Made by a program: the position numbers and the translations under genes
The notes under the pieces: generated by a model
Seen by the model: only the letters and a program-made list of their open reading frames with translations
What the model was told of the DNA's origin: nothing
Database searches by the model: none
Part shown: piece after piece, positions 4,080-18,900 of the stretch
Layout of the letters: every line of letters starts with the position of its first letter
Position numbering within the stretch: the first letter of the stretch is position 1
Assembly: GCF_000787835.1 (NCBI RefSeq)
Contig: NZ_BBPP01000006.1
Location: 34,186-98,185, forward strand
Source of the DNA: Streptacidiphilus melanogenes
GTDB lineage: Bacteria > Actinomycetota > Actinomycetes > Streptomycetales > Streptomycetaceae
DNA length: 64,000 bases
Reading direction: 5' to 3'

Positions 4080-4949
4080 GTGACCGACATCGTCCTGCTC
4101 ACCGGCCGCACCATGCCCCGCGAGGTCCACGAGAACGACCTCCTGGTGGACGAGCTGCGCACGCTGGGCGTCACCGCCGAGATCCACCCCTGGGACGAGG
4201 AACTGGACTGGAGCGCGTACGGCCTCGCGCTGGTACGCACCACCTGGGACTACTGGGACCGGCTGGACGAGTTCCTCGCCTGGGCCGGCCGGGCCGGGCG
4301 GCAGACCGCGCTGCGCAACCCCGCCGAGGTCATCGCCTGGAACCACCACAAGGGCTACCTCGTCGCCCTCGCGGAGCAGGGCATATCCGTGGTGCCCACC
4401 GCTCTCCTGCCCCGCGGCTCCGACCGGCGCGCGGTCGACGCGACGCTCGCCGAGTTCCGGGAGCGCCACGGCGACATCGAGATCGTCGGCAAGCCGACCG
4501 TCTCCGCCGGAGCGCGCGGCGCCCTGCGCGCCCACGTCGACGCACCCGAGACCGCCGCCCACCTGGAGACGCTCGTCAGCCGCGGCGACGCGCTGCTGCA
4601 GCCCCTCGTCGACTCCATCCTGACCCGCGGCGAGACCTCCCTGATCTTCTTCGGCACCGAGTTCAGCCACGCCGTCCGCAAGGTCCCCGCGGCGGGCGAG
4701 TACCGCATCCACGAGCACCACGGCGGCACGGTGCGACAGCACACCCCCTCCCAGGCCGAACTCGCGGTCGCCCGGGCCGCACTGGCGGCGGCGCCCGCGC
4801 CGGTCGCCTACGGGCGCGTCGACCTGGTCGAACTCGCCGACGGCCCCGCCGTCATGGAGCTAGAGCTGATCGAGCCCGAGCTCTTCCTCCCCCACACGCC
4901 GGGCGCGACGGCCCGCTACGCCCACCACCTCGCCGAGCTGCTGCCATGA
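4080..4949 (+). CDS. ATP-grasp domain protein
   Basis: The 289-residue protein resembles RimK/glutathione synthetase-like ATP-grasp proteins. The N-terminal part has a TTWDYW motif. An N-P...W-N-x-x-K segment (around residues 79-90) follows, then a central nucleotide-binding region around GKPTVSAGARGA and a C-terminal acidic VMELELIEPELF stretch that should hold the metal-binding residues. Such enzymes join a carboxylate to an amine or similar nucleophile using ATP; the substrate is unknown. It starts at GTG 4080 and its stop overlaps the PPTase start by 4 bases, so the two are probably translationally coupled. Confidence 0.82.
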   Translation: MTDIVLLTGRTMPREVHENDLLVDELRTLGVTAEIHPWDEELDWSAYGLALVRTTWDYWDRLDEFLAWAGRAGRQTALRNPAEVIAWNHHKGYLVALAEQGISVVPTALLPRGSDRRAVDATLAEFRERHGDIEIVGKPTVSAGARGALRAHVDAPETAAHLETLVSRGDALLQPLVDSILTRGETSLIFFGTEFSHAVRKVPAAGEYRIHEHHGGTVRQHTPSQAELAVARAALAAAPAPVAYGRVDLVELADGPAVMELELIEPELFLPHTPGATARYAHHLAELLP

Positions 4950-5722
4950 CCGAGGCGGGGCAGGCCGAGCCGGGGCAGGCCGAGGCGGGGAGGGTCGAGC
5001 CGGGGCAGCCCGAGCCGGGGCAGAGCAATGCGGAGCAGACCCAGGCGGGGAGGGTCGAGTTGGCACAGGTCGACCTCTGGCTGCTCGATGTGCGGGCTCC
5101 CCAGCCCGCACTTGACCCCGCCGTCCTCGACGCGGAGGAACGCGAACGCGCCGCCCGCTTCCTCCGTGAGGGCGACCGCGTCCTCTACACCGTCGCCCAC
5201 ACCGCCCTCCGCGCCGTGCTCGCGGCACGGACCGGCGTGCCGGCGGCGGACCTCCGCTTCGAACGCGCCCCCTGCCCCTGCTGCGGCGCGCTCCACGGCC
5301 GCCCCCGCCTCGCCTCGGCGGACGGCCCCGAGTTCTCCCTCTCCCACGGCGGCGACCTGGTCCTCATCGGCCTGGCCCCGCAGTCGGCGCCGATCGGCGT
5401 CGACGTGGAGCGGCTCCCCGGACCGGAGACGGTCCGCGAGACGACGGCCACCCTCCACCCGGCGGAGCGCACCGAGTTGGCCGCCGCTGCCGGCGGCCCC
5501 TCCCCCGAGGCCTTCGCGCGGATCTGGACCCGCAAGGAGGCCTATCTCAAGGCACTCGGCACCGGCCTCGGCCGCGAGCCCTCCGCCGACTACGTCGGCG
5601 AGGCGGATCCGGCAGCGCTCCCTCAGGGCTGGACCATCGCCACCCTCGACGCCGGCCCCACCCACGCGGCGGCCTTCGCCGTCGCGGCCTCCGCGGCGAC
5701 GTTCACCTTCCACGAGCTCTGA
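4946..5722 (+). CDS. 4'-phosphopantetheinyl transferase (Sfp type)
   Basis: The 258-residue enzyme would move the phosphopantetheine arm of CoA to a carrier-protein serine. Visible motifs are SLSHGG, GVDVE with the Mg-binding Asp153 and Glu155, and WTRKEAYLKALGTGL, in the order expected for Sfp-type enzymes. The first 40 residues are an odd Gly/Pro/Glu/Gln-rich run of GQAEPGQAE-type repeats encoded by a repetitive stretch at about 4957-5035, probably dispensable. Its partner is not obvious, but a carrier-protein domain exists in this window in the NRPS at 32924-36862. It overlaps the ATP-grasp gene by 4 bases. Confidence 0.9.
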   Translation: MTEAGQAEPGQAEAGRVEPGQPEPGQSNAEQTQAGRVELAQVDLWLLDVRAPQPALDPAVLDAEERERAARFLREGDRVLYTVAHTALRAVLAARTGVPAADLRFERAPCPCCGALHGRPRLASADGPEFSLSHGGDLVLIGLAPQSAPIGVDVERLPGPETVRETTATLHPAERTELAAAAGGPSPEAFARIWTRKEAYLKALGTGLGREPSADYVGEADPAALPQGWTIATLDAGPTHAAAFAVAASAATFTFHEL

Positions 5723-5752
5723 GCGCGTCCGCCCTCGCCCTGGGGCGGGAGT

Positions 5753-6877
5753 TCACGTCTGGCTCTGCGGCTGGTACTCCTCCACCGACAGGCCGAACGT
5801 CCAGGCGACCCCCTCCCGCGCGCTGCGCGTGCTCGGAGGAACCCGGAGCCAGTAGACCCGGTTCGTACCGTCGGGCTCCGGCGTGGAGTTGACCACCTCG
5901 ACCATGACCAGGGGCTCGTCCCCCGGCAGTTGGATGCGCCAGAGCACCCCCGTCTCGTCCCGGCCGAGCGGCTGCGCCCCGGACTCGGCGAGGTAGCGGT
6001 CGTAGCCGAAGTGCTCCAGCATCACGCGGCGCACCTCGGCGTTGCCCTCCTCGCGGATCTCCTCGACCGTCAGCGTGGCGAGGCGCGCGAAGAGCGAGGC
6101 CGGCACCGGCATGCCGCGCCAGGCGTGCAGCGCGAAGCCGTCGGGATAGGCCAGCGCCGGGCCGTCACCACGGTGCAGGCGCCCCGCCTCGTCCAGGTCC
6201 AGCACGACCGGACGCTCCGCCAGCAGCACCACCTCGGCGTACGGCCACCACCAGCCCGCGCTGCGCGCCACGGCCGCGAGACCCGCCAGCTCCTCGTCGT
6301 CCGCGAGGGCGGCGAGCCATGCCGCGTCCTGCTGGCCGAGCACCGCGTCGAGCAGCGCCAGCCGCACGGCCGACCGCGCACCATCGGACGGCACCGCCTG
6401 CCCGGCCTCGGCCCCGGCCAGCGCGTCCACGACGGCGTCCCGTATCCGCTGCCCCAGCCCGTGCAGGCGCGGCCACAGCTCGCCCGCGGTACTCGTCCAC
6501 CGCTCCGACCATCCGGCCTGGCCGAGCCGGCCGACGAGGCGGGCACGGGCGCGCTGCCAAGGCGCCGTCCGCACGGCGTCCCGCACGCTCGTCACCAGCG
6601 ACTCGCCCCCGTGCGACGCGAAGCCGTGCTCCCCGAGGAGCCGACGCGCCCGCACGCCGGCGCGCTCGGCCTCAGGGCCGGTCATCTCAGCGGTGCTGCC
6701 GGTCAGTTGCAGTGCGGCTGCAGCGGCGACCAGTGGCGAGTCGCACCACACCACCGCCCTGGGCTCCGCCAAGCCGGCCCGCCGGTAGGCCGCGCGCACG
6801 CCCGCCTCCGCCTCGGCCCGCTCCGCCGGAGCGACCCGCAGGCCGATCCGCGCCCAGTCGTCCCGCTCGGTCCCCAT
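5753..6877 (-). CDS. DUF6745 domain-containing protein
   Basis: The 374-residue protein has features I associate with the DUF6745 family: an N-terminal DDWARIGLRVAPAERAEAE region, a PRAVVWCDSPL segment near residue 40, and a C-terminal end (LRVPPSTRSAREGVAWTFGL) close to the family's usual ending. It is soluble, with no signal peptide or membrane segment. The biochemical role is unknown. In other actinomycetes a short conserved gene precedes it, and here that gene lies 153 bases upstream on the same strand. Confidence 0.75.
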   Translation of the reverse strand: MGTERDDWARIGLRVAPAERAEAEAGVRAAYRRAGLAEPRAVVWCDSPLVAAAAALQLTGSTAEMTGPEAERAGVRARRLLGEHGFASHGGESLVTSVRDAVRTAPWQRARARLVGRLGQAGWSERWTSTAGELWPRLHGLGQRIRDAVVDALAGAEAGQAVPSDGARSAVRLALLDAVLGQQDAAWLAALADDEELAGLAAVARSAGWWWPYAEVVLLAERPVVLDLDEAGRLHRGDGPALAYPDGFALHAWRGMPVPASLFARLATLTVEEIREEGNAEVRRVMLEHFGYDRYLAESGAQPLGRDETGVLWRIQLPGDEPLVMVEVVNSTPEPDGTNRVYWLRVPPSTRSAREGVAWTFGLSVEEYQPQSQT

Positions 6878-6940
6878 GGTCTGCGCTCCTCGCCTTGTGT
6901 GGTGTCCAACGGGCCCATCCGGTCCCGGTGCTGATGTACG

Positions 6941-6991
6941 GATCCCGGCTCGGCTGATCCCGGCTCCGCTGCTGATCCCGGCTCGGCTGCT
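6941..6991. repeat. GATCCCGGCTCSGCTGCT direct repeats
   Basis: Three imperfect copies of a 15-18 base unit (GATCCCGGCTCGGCT, then GATCCCGGCTCCGCTGCT and GATCCCGGCTCGGCTGCT) fill the gap between the two minus-strand DUF6745-pair genes. They lie in untranslated DNA and would be transcribed if the pair is an operon. Confidence 0.65.
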
Positions 6992-7030
6992 GTCGGCGCC
7001 GCCGACGGCGGTCCGGCTCCGGCGTCCGTG

Positions 7031-7357
7031 TCAGTCGGCGACGACGCGGACCGCGCCCGGCGTGTACTCCCGCTGCCGGACGACCCGGTACCAGCCGCGC
7101 GGCAGCGCTATCGCCGCGTGCTCCTCGTGGACGATCCGGCCGCTCTCGGTGAGCTCCAGCCAGGCCTGGGCGAACTGGTCCCCCTTGCGCAACAGACGCC
7201 CCGGCCCCTGCACGGCGTGGGCGTGGCCGGTGACCTCGCCGCGCGCCAGCACCAGCCGCCCACGCCCGTCGCGCGGCTGCGCCGGCAGGTTCGCGACCGA
7301 CGCCGGCACCGCGACCTCGGCCACCGGGACCAGCAGGACGTCTCCTTGGCGATACAT
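7031..7357 (-). CDS. Conserved small hypothetical protein, DUF6745 partner
   Basis: A 108-residue protein starting MYRQGDVLLVPV and containing a GEVTGHAHAV segment (about 40-49) and a C-terminal PRGWYRVVRQREYTPGAVR region. This pattern recurs in small proteins encoded next to DUF6745 genes; the compact beta-rich make-up could be a single small barrel. Function is unknown. The start at 7357 is the ATG that removes a long upstream extension antisense to the STM4015 gene. Confidence 0.7.
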   Translation of the reverse strand: MYRQGDVLLVPVAEVAVPASVANLPAQPRDGRGRLVLARGEVTGHAHAVQGPGRLLRKGDQFAQAWLELTESGRIVHEEHAAIALPRGWYRVVRQREYTPGAVRVVAD

Positions 7358-7561
7358 CGACCAGACCCCCTCGACGGTTTCGGGACGACCCGCGTCGCCC
7401 CACGTCCGGAACAGTAGGAGGGGGGTCTGACAATCGACGTCGCGAGCGCGGCCACCCGGTCGCACGGGCGAACCCCGGTCCGCGCGCTGTCGGTCGGGCC
7501 TGATAGGACATGGGCCGCTGTCCTCGTCCGGCTGTCCCTTCTCCGCTCTGGAGTGCCACCG

Positions 7562-8509
7562 ATGTCCGCTCACCACCTGACCACGTTCCACGGCCTTCCG
7601 GTCTTCGACCTTCCGTCGGCCGACGCGTCCGAGCCGCTCCCGGCGGCCGACTCCGTGGCCTGGCGCCTGCGCCGCGACTGGGACGACGAGGAGGACTTCG
7701 ACGGCCTCTGGCGGCGCTTCCTGGACGCCGTCCGCACCGAGGACGTGCGGGCGCTGGTCATCGGCGCCTGGGACGAGGAGATGTACGAGGACGACGCCCT
7801 CGCGCCGGTGCTGCAGGCCGTCCTCGACGCGAAGGACCGTTTCCCGCGCCTGCGCGCCTTCTTCCTCGCCGACCTCGAGTCGGAGGAGAACGAGATCTCC
7901 TGGATCCAGCAGCAGGACCTGGCACCGCTGTTGGAGGCGTTCCCCACCCTGGAGGAGCTCGGCGCGCGCGGCGCCCACCGCGTCTTCACGCCGGTCCAGC
8001 ACGCGTCACTGCGCAGGCTGCGCCTCGAATCCGGCGGCTTGGCCAAGGAGGTGGTGCACGGTGTCAGCGAGAGCAAGCTCCCGGCGCTGGAGTACCTGGA
8101 ACTCTGGCTCGGCTCCGAGAACTACGGCGGCGACACGACCGTCGCCGATCTCGCGCCGCTGCTGGCCGGCGACCGCTTCCCGGCGCTGCGTCACCTCGGG
8201 CTGCAGGACAGCGAAATCCAGGACGAGATCGCCGCGGCCGTGGCCGCCGCCCCGGTCGTCCCGATGCTGACCTCGCTCAGCCTCTCCATGGGCGTGCTCA
8301 CCGACACGGGCGCCGAGGCACTGCTGCACGGCCAGCCGCTGACCCACCTCGAACGGCTCGACCTGCACCACCACTTCCTCTCCGACGGCATGATGCAGCG
8401 CCTGCGCGAGGCGCTCGAACCGGCCGAGGTCGAGCTGGACCTGAGCGGGCAAAGCACCCCGCACCAGTGGAACGACCAGGTCTGGCACTACGTCGCGGTC
8501 TCGGAGTAG
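7562..8509 (+). CDS. STM4015 family leucine-rich-repeat-like protein
   Basis: The 315-residue acidic protein has repeated Leu-rich segments (PALEYLELWLG, PALRHLGLQDSEI, HLERLDLHHHFL) typical of bacterial LRR-like proteins. It begins HLTTFHGLPVFDL, the conserved opening of the STM4015 family. It is the first gene of a co-directional STM4015-STM4014-STM4013-STM4012-STM4011 set. LRR proteins usually bind other proteins, so it could be a scaffold or a substrate of the neighbouring enzymes; this is inference. ATG 7562 is chosen because GGAG at 7550-7553 gives an 8-base spacing; GTG 7553 overlaps that site. Confidence 0.85.
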   Translation: MSAHHLTTFHGLPVFDLPSADASEPLPAADSVAWRLRRDWDDEEDFDGLWRRFLDAVRTEDVRALVIGAWDEEMYEDDALAPVLQAVLDAKDRFPRLRAFFLADLESEENEISWIQQQDLAPLLEAFPTLEELGARGAHRVFTPVQHASLRRLRLESGGLAKEVVHGVSESKLPALEYLELWLGSENYGGDTTVADLAPLLAGDRFPALRHLGLQDSEIQDEIAAAVAAAPVVPMLTSLSLSMGVLTDTGAEALLHGQPLTHLERLDLHHHFLSDGMMQRLREALEPAEVELDLSGQSTPHQWNDQVWHYVAVSE

Positions 8510-8529
8510 CGGCGGGAAGGGGCCGGACC

Positions 8530-8721
8530 ATGTCTGTCGAGAACCACCTCAGCACCTTCCACTCCCCGCCCGTCGTCGACGTCACCGAACTGACGGAGAG
8601 GGCCGAGCGCCTGCGCGGTGCGCTGGAACCGGCGGGCGTCGCCGTGGACCTGAGCGAGGCGCAGGTCCCACAGCAGGACGACGACGAGCACCCGTGGCTC
8701 TTCGTCGCGGTCTCGGAGTGA
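8530..8721 (+). CDS. Mini-STM4015: internally deleted paralogue, 63 residues
   Basis: This short gene joins the first about 18 residues of an STM4015-type protein (HLSTFHSPPVVDV) directly to its last about 42 residues (RLRGALEPAGVAVDLS ... FVAVSE). About 250 residues of the LRR body are missing, yet the reading frame, start and stop are intact. The C-terminal ends of the two proteins match closely (both end VAVSE). It sits 20 bases after the full-length gene and touches the STM4014 gene. It is either the scar of an in-frame deletion in a tandem duplicate, or a functional micro-protein that keeps only the terminal recognition segments. Confidence 0.75.
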   Translation: MSVENHLSTFHSPPVVDVTELTERAERLRGALEPAGVAVDLSEAQVPQQDDDEHPWLFVAVSE

Positions 8722-8726
8722 TCGAC

Positions 8727-9935
8727 GTGTCCACCCCTGCCTCCGTCCGCTTCGCGGTCGTCGGCGTGCCCGGCAACCGGCGCGTCGAGATGTTCGCCGA
8801 GGCCGTGCGCGCAGCCGGTCTCGACACGCCCCTTGTCGTCCCTTGGCTGGAGGTCCTGACTCCGGGCGCGGCCGACCGGCCGGTTCTGCCGCCGGGCTGC
8901 CTGGTCCGGGTCGACTCGCCCGGCGAGGACGAGGCGGTGGACCGACTGCTGCGCGGCGAGGCGCTGGGCGGGGGCTGGGCGCCGACCAGGGTCGAGGGCG
9001 GCGCGGCCTGGTACGCGGGCTTTCGCAGCGGTCTGCGCACGCTCGCCGACGCCGTTGCGGCGACGCCCGACTGCCGACTGCTCGCCGATCCGGACGACAT
9101 CGCCGTGATGTTCGACAAGCGGCTCACCCATGCGCGTCTCGCCGCCGCGGACGTTCCGGTGCCGCCGGTGCTGCTCCAGGGCGCGGGCGGGGTCTCCGGC
9201 TGGGAGGAGCTGCGGCAGCTGCTGCGCGAGCAGCGCATGCCCCGCGTCTTCGTCAAGCCCGCACACGGATCGTCGGGTTCGGGCGTGGTCGCTCTGGAGC
9301 TCGGTCCCGACGGGCAGGCCACGGCCACCACCTCCGCCCAGCTGACCACGACCGCGGACGGCGCGGTGGAGCTGTTCAACTCCCTCCGGGTGCGGCGCTA
9401 CCGGGACGAGTCGGAACTGCGCGCGCTCTTCGACGCGCTGGCTTCCGAGCGGCTGCACGTCGAGCGCTGGCTCCCGAAGGCCGCGCAGGGCGGCCGCCCG
9501 GCCGACCTGCGCGTCGTGGTGACGGCGGGTCGGGCCACCCACCTGGTCGTCCGCACCAGCTCGCACCCCATGACCAACCTCCACCTCGGCGGCAGCCGGG
9601 GCGACGTCGCCCAGCTGCGCGAGGCGGTCGGCGCTCGCTGGTCCGCGCTGCTGGAGACGGCAGAGCAGGCTGCGGCCTGCTTCCCCGGCAGCCCGTCCGT
9701 CGGCGTGGACATCCTGCCCGCCACGGGCTGGCAGCGCTTCCGCGTCGGCGAGGTCAACGCCTTCGGCGACCTGCTGCCCGGTCTCACCGGTCTGCCCGGC
9801 AGCGGCGCGGAGGGCCTGGACACGTACGCCGCCTTCGTCACCGCGACCACCTCGCGCCTCGCCGCCACCCCGTCCACATCCCACACCGGGATCCCCCGCA
9901 CCACCACGCACCGAGAGCTCATCCCATGCCCCTGA
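8727..9935 (+). CDS. STM4014 family ATP-grasp-like protein
   Basis: The 402-residue protein has an N-terminal pre-ATP-grasp-like region (RFAVVGVPGNRRVEMF) and a central nucleotide-binding region (DKRLTHARLAAADVPVP, then VFVKPAHGSSGSGVVAL). A C-terminal segment, FRVGEVNAFGDLLPG, holds the likely metal-binding Glu and Asn. ATP-grasp enzymes make amide-like bonds with an acyl-phosphate intermediate, so it may ligate a small molecule or amino acid to the cluster's substrate. GTG 8727 is placed 8 bases after GGAG (8715-8718); GTG 8718, overlapping the previous stop, is an alternative. It overlaps the next gene by 10 bases. Confidence 0.82.
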   Translation: MSTPASVRFAVVGVPGNRRVEMFAEAVRAAGLDTPLVVPWLEVLTPGAADRPVLPPGCLVRVDSPGEDEAVDRLLRGEALGGGWAPTRVEGGAAWYAGFRSGLRTLADAVAATPDCRLLADPDDIAVMFDKRLTHARLAAADVPVPPVLLQGAGGVSGWEELRQLLREQRMPRVFVKPAHGSSGSGVVALELGPDGQATATTSAQLTTTADGAVELFNSLRVRRYRDESELRALFDALASERLHVERWLPKAAQGGRPADLRVVVTAGRATHLVVRTSSHPMTNLHLGGSRGDVAQLREAVGARWSALLETAEQAAACFPGSPSVGVDILPATGWQRFRVGEVNAFGDLLPGLTGLPGSGAEGLDTYAAFVTATTSRLAATPSTSHTGIPRTTTHRELIPCP

Positions 9936-10849
9936 CCGACCCTCCCGCGCCGGGCGCGATCCCGCGCTCCCCCGACCTCGACATGAACGAGATCGTCGGC
10001 AGCCACGACATCCTGCTCGTCACCCTGGACACCCTGCGCTACGACGTCGCCCAGGAGTTGGCCGCGGCCGGTCGACTGCCGAACCTCGCCGCCGCGGTGC
10101 TGCCGTCCGGACGATGGGAGCGCCGGCACAGTCCCGGCAGCTTCACCTACGCGGCCCACCAGGCCATCTTCGCGGGCTTCCTGCCGACCCCGGCGGAGCC
10201 GGACGGCCCGCGCGAGCGGCTTTTCGCCGCGCGCTTCGCCGGCAGCGAGACGACCGCCCCGGCGACGTACGTCTACGACACGCCCGACCTGGTCTCCGGC
10301 CTGGCCGCGTCCGGCTACCGGACCGTGTGCATCGGGGGTGTCGGCTTCTTCAACAAGCAGGCGGCGCTGGGTTCGGTGCTGCCCGGCCTGTTCCAGGAGA
10401 GCCACTGGTCGCCCGAGCTCGGGGTCACCTCGCCCACCTCCTTCGAGTCACAGGTCGCCCTCGCCGAGCAGATCTCGGCCGGACACCGGCCCGAGCAGCC
10501 GCTCTTCCTCTTCGTCAACGTCCCGGCGCTGCACCAGCCCAACTGGTTCCACCTGCCCGGCGCGACACGCGAGCACGGCGACAACCGCGCGTCCCACGCG
10601 GCCGCCCTGGAGTACGTCGACGCCCACATCGGCCGCCTCTTCGGGGCGATGCGCCGACGCCGTCCCTGCCTCGCGATCGTCTGCTCCGACCACGGCACCG
10701 CCTACGGGGACGACGAGTACCACGGCCACCGCCTCGGCCACGAGGTCGTCTGGACCGTCCCCTACGCCCACGCGGTGCTGCCGGCCGAGCCCCAAGCCTC
10801 CTCCGCACCCACGCCCATGCCCATGCCCACGCCTGAGGAGACGCCGTGA
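9926..10849 (+). CDS. STM4013/SEN3800 family sulfatase-like hydrolase
   Basis: The 307-residue protein has an alkaline-phosphatase-superfamily layout: LLVTLDTLRYD (metal-binding Asp) near the N-terminus, FLFVNVPALHQPN in the middle and CSDHGTAYG with the metal-binding Asp-His pair, then HRLGHEVVWTVPY. The classical sulfatase CxPxR formylglycine site is absent; the matching region reads SPGSFTYAAHQAIFAG, so a Ser or Thr is the probable nucleophile. It may therefore be a phosphatase or transferase rather than a sulfatase. The C-terminus is a Pro/Met-rich tail. It overlaps both neighbours. Confidence 0.82.
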   Translation: MPLTDPPAPGAIPRSPDLDMNEIVGSHDILLVTLDTLRYDVAQELAAAGRLPNLAAAVLPSGRWERRHSPGSFTYAAHQAIFAGFLPTPAEPDGPRERLFAARFAGSETTAPATYVYDTPDLVSGLAASGYRTVCIGGVGFFNKQAALGSVLPGLFQESHWSPELGVTSPTSFESQVALAEQISAGHRPEQPLFLFVNVPALHQPNWFHLPGATREHGDNRASHAAALEYVDAHIGRLFGAMRRRRPCLAIVCSDHGTAYGDDEYHGHRLGHEVVWTVPYAHAVLPAEPQASSAPTPMPMPTPEETP

Positions 10850-12282
10850 CCGTCACCGACCTGCGCATCCCCGGCCTGGACACGGGTGAGTCCCCGTACC
10901 AGAGCTATGTCTACGCGTACCCCCACAAGACCGCGTACCGGCCGCTGTCCCCGCGCCCGCGCCTCGCGGACCTCTGGGCGGCGGAGCCCAAGCACGCCCT
11001 CTCGCTCTACGCGCACATCCCCTTCTGCGAGGTCCGCTGCGGCTTCTGCAACCTGTTCACCCGGATCGGCGCCCCGGACGGGCTCAGCACCGCCTACCTC
11101 GACGCGCTCGACCGGCAGGCCGCCCGGACCGCCGAGGCGCTGAACGCCGCCCCCGGCGACGAGCCGCGCTTCGCCCAGGCCGCCTTCGGCGGGGGCACCC
11201 CCACCTTCCTGACGGCGGACGAACTCACGCGCCTCTGCGACATCATGGAACGCCGCCTGGGCGTCGACCTGCGCGCGGTGCCGCTCTCCGTCGAAGCCTC
11301 GCCCGCGACGGCCACGGCCGACCGGCTCGCCGTCCTCGCGTCGCGCGGCGCCACCCGGCTCAGCCTCGGCGTGCAGAGCTTCGTGGACGCGGAGGCCCGC
11401 GCGGCGGTCCGGCCGCAGCACCGGGCCGATGTCGAGACGGCGATCGGCCGCGTCCGCGAGGCGCGGATACCGATCCTCAACCTCGACCTCATCTACGGCA
11501 TCGAGGGCCAGACCGAGACCAGTTGGCGCCGGTCGCTGGACGCGGCGCTCGCCTTCGAGCCCGAGGAGCTGTACCTCTACCCGCTCTACGTCCGCCCGTT
11601 GACCGGCCTCGGCCGCCGAGCCGAGCCAGGCGCCCGGCCGGGCGAAGCGACCCCGGGCGACCCCGCGCAGGGTGACACCACCCCGACCGGCACCGATCCG
11701 GTCTGGGACGCCCAGCGCCTCGCCCTCTACCGGCAGGGCCGCGACCACCTGCTGGCTCACGGCTACGAGCAGGTCTCCATGCGGATGTTCCGGCGTGCCG
11801 CCTCTCCGCAGGCCGGCGGCACCGAGTACTGCTGCCAGACCGACGGCATGGTGGGGCTGGGCTGCGGCGCCCGCTCCTACACGAGCCGTCTGCACTACTC
11901 CTTCGACTACGCGGTCTCCACCGCCGAGGTGCGTGGCATCATCGACGACTACGTCGCCCGTTCCGCTGCGGACTTCGGGTACGCCGAGGTGGGCTTCGCG
12001 ATGACTCCGGACGAGGCCCGGCGCCGTCATCTGGTGCAGTCCCTGCTCCAGGCCGAGGGCTTGGACGTCCCCGGCTACCGGAGCCGCTTCGGCGGCGATC
12101 CGTCCGCCGACTTCGCCACCGAGCTGACCCGGCTCCACGAACGCGGCTGGCTCGACGCCGCGACGACGGCAGCGGACCGGATCCGCCTCTCGGCGGAGGG
12201 GCTCGCCCACTCCGACGCGATAGGTCCCGCGTTCTTCTCTCCCGGGGTCCGTGCCGCGATGGCCGCCTACGAGGCGAGGTGA
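10846..12282 (+). CDS. STM4012 family radical SAM protein (HemN-like)
   Basis: The 478-residue protein carries the radical SAM iron-sulfur motif as Cys61-x3-Cys65-x2-Cys68 (HIPFCEVRCGFCNLF). It continues with HemN-like features: FGGGTPTFL, LSLGVQSF and DLIYGIEGQT. HemN-like enzymes include coproporphyrinogen dehydrogenases and methyltransferase-like relatives; here a cluster-specific substrate is more likely. Residues about 245-290 form a Gly/Pro/Asp-rich insertion with repeated GDxxPGD-like sequence. It starts at GTG 10846, overlapping the preceding stop by 4 bases. Confidence 0.87.
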   Translation: MTVTDLRIPGLDTGESPYQSYVYAYPHKTAYRPLSPRPRLADLWAAEPKHALSLYAHIPFCEVRCGFCNLFTRIGAPDGLSTAYLDALDRQAARTAEALNAAPGDEPRFAQAAFGGGTPTFLTADELTRLCDIMERRLGVDLRAVPLSVEASPATATADRLAVLASRGATRLSLGVQSFVDAEARAAVRPQHRADVETAIGRVREARIPILNLDLIYGIEGQTETSWRRSLDAALAFEPEELYLYPLYVRPLTGLGRRAEPGARPGEATPGDPAQGDTTPTGTDPVWDAQRLALYRQGRDHLLAHGYEQVSMRMFRRAASPQAGGTEYCCQTDGMVGLGCGARSYTSRLHYSFDYAVSTAEVRGIIDDYVARSAADFGYAEVGFAMTPDEARRRHLVQSLLQAEGLDVPGYRSRFGGDPSADFATELTRLHERGWLDAATTAADRIRLSAEGLAHSDAIGPAFFSPGVRAAMAAYEAR

Positions 12283-12286
12283 GCCC

Positions 12287-13231
12287 GTGGGCGACGACGC
12301 GCTGACCATCCTCTACCGGGGCCCGCTCGCCTCCTGCGACTACGACTGCCCTTACTGCCCGTTCGCCAAGCGCCGCGACAGCCGGGCCGAGCTGACGGCC
12401 GACCGCGAGGCGTTGGAGCGCTTCGCCGCCTGGGTGCGGGGGCAGCGGGAGACCGGGCTCTCGCTGCTGTTCACGCCCTGGGGCGAGGGCCTCGTCCGGT
12501 CCTGGTACCGGCGCACGCTGGCCGAGTTGAGCCGGCTTCCGCACGTGCGGCGGGTGGCGATCCAGACCAATCTCAGCCACCGCACCGACTGGGTCGGGCA
12601 GGCCTGCCCGGCCACGCTCGCCCTGTGGACGACGTACCACCCGGGACAGGTCGGCCATGACCGCTTCCTCGCCAAATGCCGCGAGCTGGACGCGCGCGGC
12701 ATCCGCTACAGCGTGGGCGTGGTCGGCGATCCGGCCCACCTCGAGGCGGCCCGGCGGATGCGTGCCGCCCTGCCCGAGCACGTCTACCTCTGGGTCAACG
12801 CCCAGGAGGGGCGCCGCTACACCGACGCCGAGGCCGAGCCGTGGGTGGCGCTGGACCCGCTCTTCCCCTTCAGCCGTGACCCGCACCCGAGCGCGGGTCG
12901 GGTCTGCCGGACGGGTGAGACGGTGGTCTCGGTGGACGGCGAGGGAACGGTCCGGCGCTGCCACTTCGTGAAGCAGCCGCTCGGCAACCTCTACGACGGC
13001 TCGTACCGCGCCGCGCTACGCCCGCGACCGTGCCCGCTCGCCGTCTGCGACTGCCACATCGGCTACGTGCACCTGGAGTCGCTCCCGCTCTACGACGTCT
13101 TCGCGGGCGGCGTGCTCGAGCGGATCCCCGCCGCCTGGCCGCGACCGGCGAACGCCGACCGGGCGGCCGTACCGAGCCGGTCGAGGCCGACGACGACGGC
13201 CGCGAGCACGACGAACTCTACGGTCAGCTGA
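12287..13231 (+). CDS. STM4011 family radical SAM protein
   Basis: The 314-residue protein has Cys17-x3-Cys21-x2-Cys24 (SCDYDCPYCPFAK) as its radical SAM cluster motif. A C-terminal Cys group follows (HFVKQPLG region, then CPLAVCDCHIGYVHL) that resembles the auxiliary cluster-binding segment of SPASM/twitch-type enzymes. GAGGTGA at 12276-12282 supports the GTG start at 12287. The last about 47 codons are antisense to the C-terminus of the convergent Pr6Pr gene, and the final Ser/Thr/Arg-rich residues look unlike a folded domain. It is the last gene of the STM401x set. Confidence 0.85.
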   Translation: MGDDALTILYRGPLASCDYDCPYCPFAKRRDSRAELTADREALERFAAWVRGQRETGLSLLFTPWGEGLVRSWYRRTLAELSRLPHVRRVAIQTNLSHRTDWVGQACPATLALWTTYHPGQVGHDRFLAKCRELDARGIRYSVGVVGDPAHLEAARRMRAALPEHVYLWVNAQEGRRYTDAEAEPWVALDPLFPFSRDPHPSAGRVCRTGETVVSVDGEGTVRRCHFVKQPLGNLYDGSYRAALRPRPCPLAVCDCHIGYVHLESLPLYDVFAGGVLERIPAAWPRPANADRAAVPSRSRPTTTAASTTNSTVS

Positions 13232-13821
13232 GCGATCTGCAGGCCGACCCAGCCGTACCCGTGACCGGTGGGGTCCAGGAAGAAGTAGGGGTAGCGGTTG
13301 GGGAAGTAGGGGAATAGTGCGGCGCGAAGCTCCGTCAGTCCGGCGTAGCCGAGCGGGAAGGCGAGCCAGAGGGGCAGGTCGCGCCAGCGGGAGGCGTTGC
13401 GCGGGCGGCAGCAGAGCCAGTCCACCAGCACCATGATCGGCGTGGTGTAGTGCAGGAGCAGCAGCGACCAGCTCTGCAGGCGGTCCGCGCCGCTGCCGTG
13501 CGTCAGGCCGGGGAGCGGGCTCGCTCCGTGGTTGAGCACGATGTGCGCGACCAGGCCGGTGATCAGGATGTAAAGGGTCACGGCGCCGCGCAGCCGCGGC
13601 GCCGGGCCGTCGACGGTGCGCCGGGTGACCATCCGGTAGAGGGCGGCCGTGAAGTAGCCGAGGACGAGCACGTTGCTCTCGACGGTGAAGTACACCAGCG
13701 AACTGGTCCCGGTGATCAGCCCGCCTCCGGCGGAGAGGACGATGCCGATCCGCCACCAGAGGGCGGCGCTCATCCACACGGACCCGTTTGCTTCGCCGTT
13801 CTGTTCCACGCTCTGTACCAC
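13090..13821 (-). CDS. Pr6Pr family membrane protein
   Basis: The 243-residue protein has about six hydrophobic helices, with TSSLVYFTVESNVLVL, AHIVLNHG, LLHYTTPIMVLVDW and a YPYFFLDPTGHGYGW segment typical of Pr6Pr (FAR-17a/AIG1-like) membrane proteins. Function in bacteria is unknown. It starts at GTG 13821; an in-frame ATG at 13773 is the alternative. Its 3' end overlaps the 3' end of the convergent STM4011 gene by 142 bases, so one or both C-termini may be longer than in relatives. Confidence 0.8.
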   Translation of the reverse strand: MVQSVEQNGEANGSVWMSAALWWRIGIVLSAGGGLITGTSSLVYFTVESNVLVLGYFTAALYRMVTRRTVDGPAPRLRGAVTLYILITGLVAHIVLNHGASPLPGLTHGSGADRLQSWSLLLLHYTTPIMVLVDWLCCRPRNASRWRDLPLWLAFPLGYAGLTELRAALFPYFPNRYPYFFLDPTGHGYGWVGLQIAQLTVEFVVLAAVVVGLDRLGTAARSAFAGRGQAAGIRSSTPPAKTS

Positions 13822-14132
13822 TGCCTCGCGACGTCGGACCGGATCGCCGCACTCTACCGGCGGGTAGCCCCCGGGGGTAGCTCTCCCGACCGAACGACAC
13901 GCGCCACGCCAAACGCATATTTCCAGCCATGTCGGGAAGATCCCTCCGCATACGATGCACCCTTACCGCACTTGTGTTCGACCAGTTCTCGAACGCCGGA
14001 CCGACGACAGTTCGCAGGCGGCAAACGGCTCAGACCCTCCTGTCGATCCTCTGTTCCGGCTCGGAGGATGGACGCGCTCGGCGTGCCGCCCGGCACGTCG
14101 GGGGGTTAGGTGGACTTGGGAGGAGGAGAACC
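13822..14132. other. Divergent intergenic region before the ergothioneine operon
   Basis: This 311-base stretch separates the minus-strand Pr6Pr gene from egtA and should hold both promoters. Visible items are a GC-rich near-palindrome around 13863-13880 (GTAGCCCCCGGGGGTAGC) and a CATACGAT box near 13950 that could be a -10 element for egtA. No gene is supported in it. Confidence 0.5.
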
Positions 14133-15443
14133 GTGGACCATGAACGCGATGCCGGCAGGCCGGACGAGCTCACGCTCGACAGGGCGGCCGGCCACATCCA
14201 CGGCGTGTGCTTCAAGACCGGGCCGCCCGGAAACGCGGGCGTCGAGCTGGAATGGCTGGTCCTCGACCGCACACAGCCGCACCGTCCCGTACCGCCCGAG
14301 CGCCTCGACGCGGCGCTCGCGCCCCTTCCGACGAGGGACGGAAGACTGCCGAGCGGCACACTGCTGACCCGCGAACCCGGCGGGCAGCTGGAACTGAGCA
14401 CGTCCTGCGCGCCAGGCCCCCTCGCCTGCGTCACCACGGCCGCCGACGACCTCGCACTGGTCCGGCAGGCCCTCGACGAGCAGGGCCTCGACCTCTCCGG
14501 TTACGGCCTGGATCCGTACCGCGACTCGCCGCGGGTGCTCGACCATCCGCGTTACGCGGCCATGGAGGCCTACCTCGACCGCATCGGCCCATGGGGCCGG
14601 ATGATGATGCGCTCCACCGCCGCCTTCCAGCTCAACCTCGACGCCGGCACCGAGAACGGCGGCATCGACGGCTATCGCGCCCGCTGGCAGCTGGTCCACC
14701 GGCTCGGCCCGGTGCTGGTCGCCGCCTTCGCGAACTCCCCGCTGTGGCACGGCAAACCCACCGGATGGCGGTCCACCCGCCAGGCCGTCTGGGAACACCT
14801 CGACCCGAGCCGCACCCGTCCCCCGCTGGGTCTGCCCGCCGACGCCGACCCGCGCGACGCGTGGGCGCGCTTCGCCCTCGACGCCGGGCTGCTCTGCCTG
14901 CAGCGCACCCCGCCCGCCGACTGGACCGCCCCGCCCGGCCACACCTTCGCCAGCTGGCTGCAGGGCGGCATCACCGAGCGTCCGCCCACGCAGGAGGACC
15001 TCGACTACCACCTGAGCACGCTCTTCCCGCCCGTCCGCCCCCGCGGCTGGCTGGAGCTGCGGATGATCGACGCCCAGCCGGGCGACGGCTGGCTCGTCCC
15101 GGCGCTGCTCACCACGGTGCTGCTGGACGACCCGGACGCCGCCCGGGCGGCCTGGTCGGCGACGGAACCGCTCTGCGCGGCGTCCTCGCCGTTCCCCGCG
15201 CAGTCGGTCTGGTCCCGCGCGGCACGGCTGGGCCCGTCCGCGCCCGAGTTCGCCAAGGCCGCACTGGCCTGCTTCGAGGTCGCGGACGCCGCGCTCACCC
15301 GGGCGGGCGTCCCCGCCTCGCTGCGCGAAGCCGTTGCGGCCTTCGCCGAGCGCTACCCCGCCCGCGGGCGATGTCCCGCCGACGACCTCCTGGACGACCG
15401 CGTCGCTGGTCGACCCGCCCATCCGGAAGGACTCCTCCGATGA
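14133..15443 (+). CDS. egtA: EgtA, glutamate-cysteine ligase of ergothioneine synthesis
   Basis: The 436-residue protein is a GCS2-like ligase that makes gamma-glutamylcysteine, the thiol donor for EgtB. Visible family features are the GVELEWLVLD motif near the N-terminus, the GGQLELSTSC segment, MMMRSTAAFQLNLDAG in the middle and a RGWLELRMIDAQPG stretch. GTG 14133 is preceded by a GGAGGAGGAG-type ribosome site at about 14119-14128. Its stop overlaps the egtB start by 4 bases (ATGA). It is the first gene of egtA-egtB-egtC-egtD. Confidence 0.93.
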   Translation: MDHERDAGRPDELTLDRAAGHIHGVCFKTGPPGNAGVELEWLVLDRTQPHRPVPPERLDAALAPLPTRDGRLPSGTLLTREPGGQLELSTSCAPGPLACVTTAADDLALVRQALDEQGLDLSGYGLDPYRDSPRVLDHPRYAAMEAYLDRIGPWGRMMMRSTAAFQLNLDAGTENGGIDGYRARWQLVHRLGPVLVAAFANSPLWHGKPTGWRSTRQAVWEHLDPSRTRPPLGLPADADPRDAWARFALDAGLLCLQRTPPADWTAPPGHTFASWLQGGITERPPTQEDLDYHLSTLFPPVRPRGWLELRMIDAQPGDGWLVPALLTTVLLDDPDAARAAWSATEPLCAASSPFPAQSVWSRAARLGPSAPEFAKAALACFEVADAALTRAGVPASLREAVAAFAERYPARGRCPADDLLDDRVAGRPAHPEGLLR

Positions 15444-16942
15444 CCGCGACCTCCCGTCCCTACGACCCCACCAGCAAGACCGACGCGATGGACAGCACCG
15501 ACGCGACAGGCACGACCGACCCGACACGTACGACCGACCCTGCGGAAAGCACCATGCCCCGCAGGACCGCGGACGACCTCCGCGCGACGGCCCGGGCCGC
15601 CCTGGAGCGAGCCCGACGCCGCACCCTCGCGCTGACCGACTGCCTGGACGAGGAGGAGCTCGGCGCGCAGCACTCACGGCTGATGTCGCCGCTGGTCTGG
15701 GATCTCGCCCACATCGGCAACCAGGAGGAGATCTGGCTGGTCCGCGCGGCGGGCGGCCAGGACGCGATCCGGCCGGACCTGGACCCTCTCTACGACGCCT
15801 TCCAGCACCCGCGCGCCGACCGGCCCGCGCTGCCGCTGCTGCCCCCCGAGCCTGCGCGCCGCTACGTCGCCGCCGTCCGCGAGCGCTCGTTCGCGGTGCT
15901 GGAGGACGCGCCGTTCGGCCCCGGTGAGGACCCGCTGCTCGCCGACGGCTTCGTCTTCGGCATGCTCGCCCAGCACGAGCAGCAGCACGACGAGACCATG
16001 CTCGCCACCCACCAGCTGCGCCGCGGCCCGGCCGTGCTCCACGCGCCGCCGCCGGACCCTGCCCCGGCGGACGCGGGCGACCTTCCGTCCGAGGTCCGGA
16101 TCCCGGGCGGCCCGTTCGTCATGGGCACGGACGACGAGCCCTGGGCCCTCGACAACGAGCGGCCCGCGCACCCGGTCGACGTCCCGGACTTCTGGCTGGA
16201 CACCGTTCCCGTCAGCAACCGCGCCTACCAGGCCTTCATCGCTGCGGGCGGCTACGAGGACGCGCGCTGGTGGAGCCCCGCGGGCTGGTCCCACCGCGTC
16301 CAGGCGGGCCTGCACGCGCCGCTGTTCTGGCGGCGCGCCGACGACCCCGACGCGGTCGAGGGCGGCTGGCTGCGCCGTCGGTTCGGCGTGGTCGAGCCGG
16401 TGCCGCTCGACGAGCCGGTGCTGCACGTGTGCTGGTACGAGGCCGACGCCTACGCCCGCTGGGCCGGACGCCGCCTGCCCACCGAGGCGGAGTGGGAGAA
16501 GGCGGCGCGCCACGATCCCGCCACCGGCCGTTCCCGCCGCTATCCGTGGGGCGACGCGGAGCCCACGACGGAGCTGGCCAACCTCGGTCAGCGCCACCTC
16601 CAGCCGGCCCCGGTCGGCAGCTACCCGGCCGGTGCCTCCCCGCACGGCGCACGGCAGTTGATCGGCGACGTGTGGGAGTGGACTGCGAGCGACTTCGAGC
16701 CGCACCCGGGCTTCACGGCCTTCCCGTACAAGGAGTACTCGGAGGTCTTCTTCGGCCCGGACTACAAGGTCCTGCGCGGCGGCGCCTTCGGCGTCGACCC
16801 GGTGGCCTGTCGCGGGACCTTCCGCAACTGGGACTACCCGATCCGCCGGCAGATCTTCGCCGGCTTCCGCACCGCGCGCGACGCGGCCCCCGGCGGAGCC
16901 GCCGACGGGACGGCCGACAACCCGGCGGAGGCACGCGACTGA
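15440..16942 (+). CDS. egtB: EgtB, iron-dependent sulfoxide synthase of ergothioneine synthesis
   Basis: EgtB joins hercynine to gamma-glutamylcysteine using oxygen and a mononuclear iron. The 500-residue protein has an N-terminal DinB-like domain with the probable iron ligands His91 (AHIGNQEE) and His179/His183 (HEQQHDETM), and a C-terminal formylglycine-enzyme-like FGE-sulfatase domain ending in GFRTARD. The first about 38 residues are a low-complexity Asp/Thr/Ser run. An ATG at 15554 after GGAAAG gives a 462-residue protein closer to the usual length, so the true start is uncertain. It overlaps egtA by 4 bases and egtC by 1 base. Confidence 0.93.
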   Translation: MTATSRPYDPTSKTDAMDSTDATGTTDPTRTTDPAESTMPRRTADDLRATARAALERARRRTLALTDCLDEEELGAQHSRLMSPLVWDLAHIGNQEEIWLVRAAGGQDAIRPDLDPLYDAFQHPRADRPALPLLPPEPARRYVAAVRERSFAVLEDAPFGPGEDPLLADGFVFGMLAQHEQQHDETMLATHQLRRGPAVLHAPPPDPAPADAGDLPSEVRIPGGPFVMGTDDEPWALDNERPAHPVDVPDFWLDTVPVSNRAYQAFIAAGGYEDARWWSPAGWSHRVQAGLHAPLFWRRADDPDAVEGGWLRRRFGVVEPVPLDEPVLHVCWYEADAYARWAGRRLPTEAEWEKAARHDPATGRSRRYPWGDAEPTTELANLGQRHLQPAPVGSYPAGASPHGARQLIGDVWEWTASDFEPHPGFTAFPYKEYSEVFFGPDYKVLRGGAFGVDPVACRGTFRNWDYPIRRQIFAGFRTARDAAPGGAADGTADNPAEARD

Positions 16943-18900
16943 TGTGTCGTCACCTCGCCTATCTTGGCCCGGAGGTGTCGCTCGCGGAGATCGTGCTGCG
17001 TCCTGCGGGTGGACTCTACGAGCAGTCCTGGGCGCCCCGCCGCCAGCGCTACGGCACCGTGAACGCGGACGGATTCGGTCTCGGCTGGTACCCGGAGCCC
17101 CTTCCGCCTCCACGCGATTCGGAGGCGGCGCCCAAGGAGGCGGCCGAGGCCGCCGAGGCTCCCGAACCGGCGCGTTACCGCCGCGCGGTCCCGATCTGGG
17201 CCGATCCGAACCTGCCCGAGCTGGCGGGAGCGGTGCGCAGCGGCGCGATCCTCGCCGCCGTGCGCTCGGCCACCGCGGGCACCACACAGGACGAGTCGGC
17301 CGCCGCGCCGTTCCGCGACGGGCGTCGCCTGTTCAGCCACAACGGCGCGATCCGGGACTGGACCCGCCTGCCGGCGGCGATCGCCGCCGCGGGCGGCCCC
17401 GGGGCCGACGCGCCGCTCGACGGCGCCGCGCTGCTGTCGCTGGCGGCGCGCAGCGACTCCGCGCTGCTGTGGGCGATGCTCACCCGCCGCCTGCGCCGCG
17501 GCGAGACGGCGGGCGGCGCGCTCGCCGCACTCGTCCGGCAGGTCGCCTCGGTCCGGCCGGACGCGCGGCTCAACCTGCTGCTCACCGACGGCGCGACCAT
17601 CGCCGCCACCCGCTACGGCGACACGCTCTGGTACCGGCACGCGCCGGGCCGCGTCCTCGTCGCCTCCGAGCCCGACGACGAACCGTCGTCGGAGGCACTG
17701 GGCAGCTGGCAGGAGGTCCCCGACCACTCCCTCCTCCTCGCGACCCGGGCCGGCGTCCGCGTCGTCCCGCTGCGCCCGCCGACGGAGCCTCCCCGCCTGA
17801 CGGCGGGCCCCGCGGACGCCACCGACAGCCTTTCCCGTCCTACCCGTTCCATCCGCAGGCCCGACCTGTGCCTGCCCGCCGACGGCGGAACAGAACCGGA
17901 GAGACTCACCATGATCACGCAGCGACCCCGCTTCACCCTGGACGACCGGCTTCCCGCCGACCACCTGGCCAAGGCCCTGCGCAACGACGTCGCCTCCGGC
18001 CTCACCGCCGAACCCAAGTCCCTGCCACCCAAGTGGTTCTACGACGCCCACGGCAGCGAGCTGTTCGAGCAGATCACGCATCTCGCCGAGTACTACCCGA
18101 CCCGCGCCGAGCAGGAGATCCTGACCCGCCGCGCCCCGGAGATCGCCGCGCTCACCCGCGCCGGCACCCTCTTCGAGCTCGGCTCCGGCTCCTCCCGCAA
18201 GACCCGTCTACTCCTCGACGCTCTCACCGAGGCCGGCACGCTCTCCTGCTACGCCCCGCTCGACGTCAGCCCGAGCGCCCTGGAGCAGGCCGGCTCGGCC
18301 CTCGTCCGCGACTACCCGAACCTGCGCGTCGCCGCCACCGTCACCGACTTCGAGTCCGACCTCACCCTCCCGCCGGACGCCCCCGGCCCGCGCCTTGTCG
18401 CCTTCCTCGGCAGCACCATCGGCAACCTGGACCCGCAGCAACGCGCGGCGTTCTACCGCTCTCTGCGCCGCACTCTCAGCGCGGACGACGTGCTGCTGCT
18501 CGGCGCCGACCTCGTCAAGGACCCCGAGGTCCTCGTCCGCGCGTACGACGACGGCGAGGGCGTCACGGCCGAGTTCAACAAGAACGTCCTCAGCGTCCTC
18601 GACCGCGAGCTCGACGCCGACTTCGACGTGGACGCCTTCGCCCACGTCGCTCTCTGGAACGAGCAGCAGGAGCGCATCGAGATGCACCTGCGCTCCCTGC
18701 GCGCCCAGACCGTCAAGGTCCCGGCGCTCGACCTCTCGGTCGACTTCGCCGCCGACGAGCTGATGCGCACGGAGATCTCCTGCAAGTTCCGCCGCGAATC
18801 CCTCACCACCGAACTGGCCGCCGGCGGCCTCACCGTCCGCCACTGGTGGACGGACGAATCCGCCCGCTTCGCCCTCCTCCTGGCGGTCCCGAGCCGCTGA
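16942..18900 (+). CDS. egtC-egtD: EgtC-EgtD in one continuous frame (amidohydrolase fused to histidine methyltransferase)
   Basis: One 652-codon frame contains both genes with no stop between them. Residues 1 to about 275 are EgtC, the class II glutamine-amidotransferase-like hydrolase that removes glutamate from the EgtB product, with catalytic Cys2 (MCRHLAYLG) and SHNGAIRDW. Residues about 276-323 are a Pro/Thr/Arg-rich linker without domain features. Residues 324-652 are EgtD, the SAM-dependent histidine trimethyltransferase (LFELGSGSSRKT, FLGSTIGNLD). ATG 17911 at the EgtD start is preceded by GGAGAG at 17898-17903, so EgtD may also be made separately by internal initiation. Most actinobacteria carry egtC and egtD as separate genes. 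Confidence 0.9.
   Translation: MCRHLAYLGPEVSLAEIVLRPAGGLYEQSWAPRRQRYGTVNADGFGLGWYPEPLPPPRDSEAAPKEAAEAAEAPEPARYRRAVPIWADPNLPELAGAVRSGAILAAVRSATAGTTQDESAAAPFRDGRRLFSHNGAIRDWTRLPAAIAAAGGPGADAPLDGAALLSLAARSDSALLWAMLTRRLRRGETAGGALAALVRQVASVRPDARLNLLLTDGATIAATRYGDTLWYRHAPGRVLVASEPDDEPSSEALGSWQEVPDHSLLLATRAGVRVVPLRPPTEPPRLTAGPADATDSLSRPTRSIRRPDLCLPADGGTEPERLTMITQRPRFTLDDRLPADHLAKALRNDVASGLTAEPKSLPPKWFYDAHGSELFEQITHLAEYYPTRAEQEILTRRAPEIAALTRAGTLFELGSGSSRKTRLLLDALTEAGTLSCYAPLDVSPSALEQAGSALVRDYPNLRVAATVTDFESDLTLPPDAPGPRLVAFLGSTIGNLDPQQRAAFYRSLRRTLSADDVLLLGADLVKDPEVLVRAYDDGEGVTAEFNKNVLSVLDRELDADFDVDAFAHVALWNEQQERIEMHLRSLRAQTVKVPALDLSVDFAADELMRTEISCKFRRESLTTELAAGGLTVRHWWTDESARFALLLAVPSR

Follow-up and report, generated by a model that had tools for sequence, protein, structure and literature searches.

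The STM4011-STM4015 gene cluster of Streptacidiphilus melanogenes: a leucine-rich repeat protein with a conserved C-terminal glutamate as candidate carrier for a predicted ATP-grasp ligase

The window analyzed here is a 64,000-nucleotide stretch of Streptacidiphilus melanogenes DNA (NCBI RefSeq assembly GCF_000787835.1, contig NZ_BBPP01000006.1, positions 34,186 to 98,185), in which positions 7562-13231 of the plus strand carry a cluster of genes of the families named STM4011 to STM4015. We found that these families form a recurrent all-or-none unit and that STM4015, a leucine-rich repeat (LRR) protein, ends in a conserved tail, the last residue of which is almost always glutamate. A second member, STM4014, is a predicted ATP-grasp ligase, the nearest folds of which include enzymes that act on the C termini of partner proteins. 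We lean, if only slightly, toward a reading in which STM4015 is the carrier or substrate protein, the terminal Glu of which STM4014 links to an amine, and a pair of radical S-adenosylmethionine (SAM) enzymes plus a hydrolase act on it. The features of the cluster are as follows.

7562-8509, plus strand: STM4015 family LRR protein, 315 residues, ending in ...WHYVAVSE (NCBIfam NF038076, 382.9 bits against a cut-off of 275)
8464-8506, plus strand: variable linker and conserved C-terminal tail, (W)HYVAVSE, of STM4015, from per-column conservation
8530-8721, plus strand: miniature STM4015, 63 residues, ending in ...WLFVAVSE (weak C-terminal match to NF038076, E value 0.0025)
8727-9935, plus strand: STM4014 family ATP-grasp protein, GTG start (NCBIfam NF038074, 417.8 bits against a cut-off of 175)
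9926-10849, plus strand: STM4013 hydrolase of the alkaline-phosphatase/sulfatase fold, ATG start (NF038075, 415 bits against a cut-off of 250; Pfam Sulfatase, 32.4 bits)
10846-12282, plus strand: STM4012 HemN-like radical SAM enzyme, GTG start (NF006067, 625.9 bits against a cut-off of 380)
12287-13231, plus strand: STM4011 radical SAM enzyme, GTG start (NF038073, 406.1 bits against a cut-off of 200)

All five main proteins score far above the curated NCBIfam cut-offs and their genes are co-directional, with ends that overlap or almost touch: the STM4013 start overlaps the STM4014 stop and the STM4012 start overlaps STM4013 by 4 bases (STM4011 has an alternative start at 12251). An earlier reading of this DNA (the original prediction) had assigned five such genes to these families, and the coordinates and scores confirm it.

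The distribution of the cluster was surveyed in 247 genomes drawn from the class Actinomycetes, presence being defined as a score above the family cut-off. The survey was run for STM4015, STM4011, and STM4014; for STM4012 and STM4013 the check was confined to loci. The genomes having STM4015 and those having STM4011 were the same 31, of which 30 also had STM4014, the sole exception being an assembly of 1310 contigs. Gene order was followed in 79 loci having long flanks together with annotated plasmids, and neighbors were counted in 87 mapped loci. The order (STM4015)n-STM4014-STM4013-STM4012-STM4011 recurs in Actinobacteria, Deinococcus, Methylobacterium, Paenibacillus, and Salmonella. Co-occurrence of STM4011-STM4015 is far above chance and the cluster is a recurrent all-or-none unit, which bears out the earlier statement that the families occur together in scattered bacteria. 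The distribution is patchy and plasmid copies exist; the non-actinobacterial STM4015 sequences numbered about a dozen and were mostly plasmid-borne. Absence of STM4014 from loci L037, L093, and L094 was considered and rejected, these genomes proving to carry the gene. At L037 (Streptosporangium subroseum, 8791-11517) STM4014 and STM4012 lie in a single 909-codon open frame with STM4013 absent from between them, a natural link of ligase to radical SAM enzyme, but one case only. In curation the five families have no status beyond hypothetical, and their range extends from Actinobacteria as far as Salmonella and Bacteroides. A literature search, most subscription journals being beyond its reach, found no published function for the set, in keeping with the original view that it has no defined product.

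The AlphaFold2 model of STM4015 (predicted local distance difference test score, pLDDT, 94.5) is a confident LRR fold that gives way at the last five residues to a coil of low confidence (block pLDDT 65). The nearest solved structure is PDB 2ra8 (Q64V53 of Bacteroides fragilis), a structural-genomics entry without assigned function that shares this LRR domain (33% identity, 253 columns, root mean square deviation 1.8). The C-terminal motif is most often R-Y-V-A-V-S/A-E, and 186 of 189 distinct full-length proteins, across phyla, terminate in Glu, including the STM4015 proteins of Salmonella (MYTE), Bacteroides (MITE), Paenibacillus (SLTE), and Calothrix (CSVAE). This conserved C-terminal Glu tail is a new observation. 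It could have been a by-product of GAG-TGA or GAA-TGA overlaps with the start codon of the next gene, an explanation rejected upon finding that all 47 of the copies having TAG or TAA stop codons also end in Glu. The terminal residues of STM4011 to STM4014 are mixed in the same operons as the Glu-ending STM4015 proteins.

STM4015 is also the only tandem-duplicated gene of the cluster. One, two, three, four, and five full-length copies are found in 42, 28, 6, 6, and 2 loci, respectively, and STM4014, STM4013, STM4012, and STM4011 are always single. Within an operon the copies have a mean identity of 76% in the tail and 65% in the body, versus 24% in the linker that precedes the tail, a variable and acidic segment. 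By analogy, multiplication of STM4015 only is the pattern usual for the substrates (precursor genes) of a shared enzyme set.

The 63-residue open reading frame between STM4015 and STM4014 had been counted as an extra gene. It proved instead to be what a deletion has left of a second STM4015 copy, and its candidacy as a separate precursor peptide was rejected. Alignment with the full-length second STM4015 gene of locus L031 gives a single in-frame gap of 792 bases (264 codons) with flanks of 64 and 128 bases that are 87.5% and 85.9% identical, such that the N-terminal 21 and C-terminal 42 residues are kept. The first STM4015 of the window is 90% identical to its L031 counterpart, the genome being near Streptacidiphilus anmyonensis. 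Other shortened STM4015 proteins that retain both ends and the terminal Glu are found at L018, L019, L025, L073, and L130 (at least six loci in all), a pattern which suggests that the ends matter most. Alternatively, the shortened copies may be decaying genes held in frame by translational coupling. The miniature protein looks less constrained because its differences from L031 are spread over the first, second, and third codon positions as 6, 9, and 11, versus 20, 13, and 51 for the intact first copy, and we make no claim of function for it.

The AlphaFold2 model of STM4014 (pLDDT 88.7) places the protein in the ATP-grasp superfamily, a prediction with which the conserved residues agree: K131, K177, D328, E342, and N344, the ATP-grasp lysines and metal ligands, are invariant in all aligned sequences. 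When the model was searched with Foldseek, the top-ranked structures were ArgX with LysW (3vpb, E value 2.6e-12), LysX, D-cycloserine synthetase, and the graspetide ligase PsnB. VIA-align ranked RimK first (Z 23.0), followed by ArgX (22.5), LysX (22.0), glutathione synthetase (20.7), and the D-Ala-D-Ala ligases (about 20). Sequence profiles of STM4014 and of STM4011 gave no useful match to solved structures. The ligases of the amino-group carrier protein (AmCP) systems act on the gamma-carboxylate of a C-terminal Glu (PMC9303977) and RimK acts on the C terminus of RpsF (PMC10092738). The fold supports, at the level of prediction, the original proposal that the ATP-grasp protein is a ligase.

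The core of our argument is that the predicted enzyme having RimK, ArgX, and LysX as its nearest folds is encoded beside a protein with a near-invariant C-terminal Glu, two observations that are independent of one another. Also counted for a carrier role are the position of STM4015 immediately upstream of STM4014, the retention of both ends, Glu included, in shortened STM4015 proteins, the natural STM4014-STM4012 fusion, and the finding that second STM4015 copies elsewhere in a genome come with a second STM4014-like gene. At L125-L128 (family f3, genus g19), a second, distant STM4015 adjoins a diverged STM4014-like gene. From these data we infer action of STM4014 on the STM4015 tail, the nature of the attached group, and all later steps. 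The LRR body would serve as a recognition handle and the flexible C-terminal tail (usually RYVAVSE) as the reactive end. STM4014 would spend ATP to convert one carboxylate of the terminal Glu into an acyl phosphate and would then couple this Glu to an amine, in the simplest case an amino acid, as do ArgX and LysX on LysW and RimK on S6. STM4012 and STM4011 would then alter the attached unit or the tail, and STM4013 would cleave a phosphate or sulfate ester en route.

The CxxxCxxC motif of STM4012 (C61, C65, C68) is invariant, as is that of STM4011 (C17, C21, C24), in which C207, C225, C249, C254, and C256 are also invariant. The five extra cysteines are suggestive of an auxiliary Fe-S cluster, although the Pfam SPASM match fell below the cut-off (E value 0.064). 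STM4013 has the near-invariant motifs DTLRxD, FTxAxH, SDHG, and GHRxGH, which correspond to the metal site of the alkaline-phosphatase/sulfatase superfamily. The original prediction had the set modifying a small molecule or peptide; the predicted ligase and the recurrent unit stand, but the Glu tail and the tandem copies favor STM4015 as the target over an unknown small molecule or a separate precursor peptide.

Several points weigh against this reading. Three of the 189 full-length STM4015 proteins end in GIGA rather than in Glu; these are middle copies at L013, L017, and L021, in operons that also contain normal copies. A conserved acidic end is not unique to STM4015 and by itself is no proof of a carrier: a 108-residue protein of the neighborhood, which we call RQGD from its N terminus, has Asp as its C-terminal residue in 61 of 61 sequences. 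The STM4015 tail could be a docking motif. In the model comparisons the lead of RimK and ArgX over other ATP-grasp proteins is modest (Z 23.0 and 22.5 versus 20.7 and about 20), and STM4014 scores 28.3 bits with the RimK family (cut-off 143.4) and 17.2 bits with LysX (cut-off 275.6), values that put its sequence outside both families. Finally, no release enzyme or peptidase is encoded in the cluster.

The strongest competitor, which we consider doubtful although deserving of attention, is maturation of the kind seen in ribosomally synthesized and post-translationally modified peptides. The radical SAM enzymes would act directly on Tyr, Val, and Ser side chains in the STM4015 tail, STM4014 would only cap or cross-link, and the modified tail would be the product or a built-in cofactor. 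The sequence is compatible with a ribosomal precursor of this kind. The Y, V, and A residues of the tail are indeed conserved in addition to Glu, extra cysteines such as the five of STM4011 are frequent in peptide-modifying radical SAM enzymes, and PsnB is among the best Foldseek matches of STM4014. However, the tail varies at most positions but the last, as the Salmonella, Bacteroides, and Paenibacillus proteins illustrate, and the cluster lacks a separate leader and core layout, a peptidase, and an exporter.

We hold it improbable that STM4015 is instead an adaptor or regulator, the tail of which docks another protein, with a free small molecule, made without recourse to a carrier, as the product of the enzymes. 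Scaffolding for binding is a typical role of LRR proteins and a docking tail would be conserved too, the invariant C-terminal residue of RQGD being a parallel, but such a role leaves unexplained the retention of the terminal Glu, the multiplication of STM4015 only, and the likeness of the neighboring protein to ligases of protein C termini. That the cluster is a defense or conflict system with LRR recognition proteins is very hard to credit: patchy distribution, plasmid copies, divergent tandem LRR copies, and the phage relatives of RQGD and of a second neighbor, DUF6745, would fit, but PADLOC gave no useful match, only a weak radical SAM one, and the core consists of intact metabolic-type enzymes in fixed stoichiometry.

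The carrier reading invites comparison with known systems. The cluster belongs to the STM4011-STM4015 families and is not an AmCP system, RimK, or a pearlin pathway, although by analogy we propose that it works like the AmCP and RimK systems. It resembles the AmCP systems (LysW/ArgW with LysX/ArgX) in having a putative carrier with an acidic, flexible C-terminal stretch ending in Glu and a partner ATP-grasp ligase. It differs in that STM4015 is a 300-residue LRR protein in tandem copies rather than a member of the small LysW family, and in that radical SAM enzymes and a hydrolase of the phosphatase/sulfatase fold take the place of the AmCP kinase, reductase, aminotransferase, and release peptidase, none of which was found among the cluster genes by family searches and in the mapped loci. 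RimK, which acts on the C terminus of S6 (RpsF), shares the ATP-grasp fold and gave the best Z score, but the partner of STM4014 is not S6, and STM4014 was never found here without other cluster genes. The pearlin pathways (PEARL, with the TglA/TmoA carrier peptides) build on the C terminus of a carrier that can be used again, and they include radical SAM steps (PMC9303977). Building on a carrier C terminus with radical SAM steps is likewise proposed here, but the carrier would be a folded LRR protein, and family searches found no PEARL (the tRNA-dependent ligase), MNIO (DUF692), or protease among the cluster genes. It is possible, although we would not yet bet on it, that the cluster represents a third class of C-terminus-tethered biosynthesis beside AmCPs and pearlins. 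In such a class a folded LRR carrier would be loaded on its terminal Glu by a dedicated ATP-grasp ligase and elaborated by two radical SAM enzymes and a hydrolase, with tandem carrier copies per enzyme set and deletions down to 63 residues that keep the carrier ends.

Upstream, the neighborhood unit reaches to 5753 on the minus strand.

7358-7561, no strand: divergent intergenic region, presumed from position only to hold the promoters of both units
7031-7357, minus strand: RQGD protein, 108 residues, ending in ...VVAD, with invariant GExTGHxH and HEEH (phrog_27831, E value 1.5e-14)
5753-6877, minus strand: DUF6745 protein, 374 residues (PF20530, 357.1 bits)

Consensus sigma-70 promoters and terminators were not found at the locus, a search that is uninformative in a GC-rich genome, and no Rfam RNA elements were found over window positions 5000-14500. 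PMC3844500 has no more than an entry for a predicted sigma-54 site at STM4013.

Of the 87 mapped loci, 67 have DUF6745 and 58 have RQGD beside the cluster, on one side or the other. Strong matches to DUF6745 (E value below 1e-90) and to RQGD (below 1e-30) were found in exactly the same 17 of the 247 genomes, all of which carry the STM cluster nearby. Some genomes, G159 and G183 among them, have weaker, divergent DUF6745-RQGD pairs but no cluster, and the Salmonella and Paenibacillus cores lack the pair; because pairs without clusters and cores without pairs both exist, we regard the pair as an accessory module. The Salmonella locus also differs from the window in having no miniature second STM4015. 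The original prediction had called for a search of the neighborhoods for a constant sixth gene, such as a precursor peptide; DUF6745 and RQGD, which that reading missed, take this place in about three quarters of the sampled loci. RQGD has no Pfam or NCBIfam model, its invariant GExTGHxH and HEEH motifs look metal-binding, and both it (phrog_27831) and DUF6745 have phage relatives.

The more distant flanks (a phosphopantetheinyl transferase, a Pr6Pr protein, and ergothioneine genes) were considered as parts of the system and rejected, their linkage being kept only in the nearest species. The phosphopantetheinyl-transferase-like gene lies upstream (4946-5722, plus strand), and its product has an N terminus of Q/A/E/G/P-rich repeats. 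The Pr6Pr family membrane protein gene (13090-13821, minus strand) is directly downstream, convergent with STM4011, the 3' end of which it overlaps. The ergothioneine genes egtA, egtB, egtC, and egtD follow the cluster (13929-18900, plus strand); egtC and egtD share an uninterrupted frame, 16270-18897 being matched by TIGR03442 as well as by TIGR03438, and may encode an EgtC-EgtD fusion.

If the carrier reading is true, the LRR fold would join the list of biosynthetic carriers, a protein handle would couple an ATP-grasp ligase with a pair of radical SAM enzymes, and the 63-residue protein would be a natural minimal carrier for in vitro work. The proposed LRR carrier with a C-terminal Glu is the first directly testable function for a widespread cluster curated as hypothetical.

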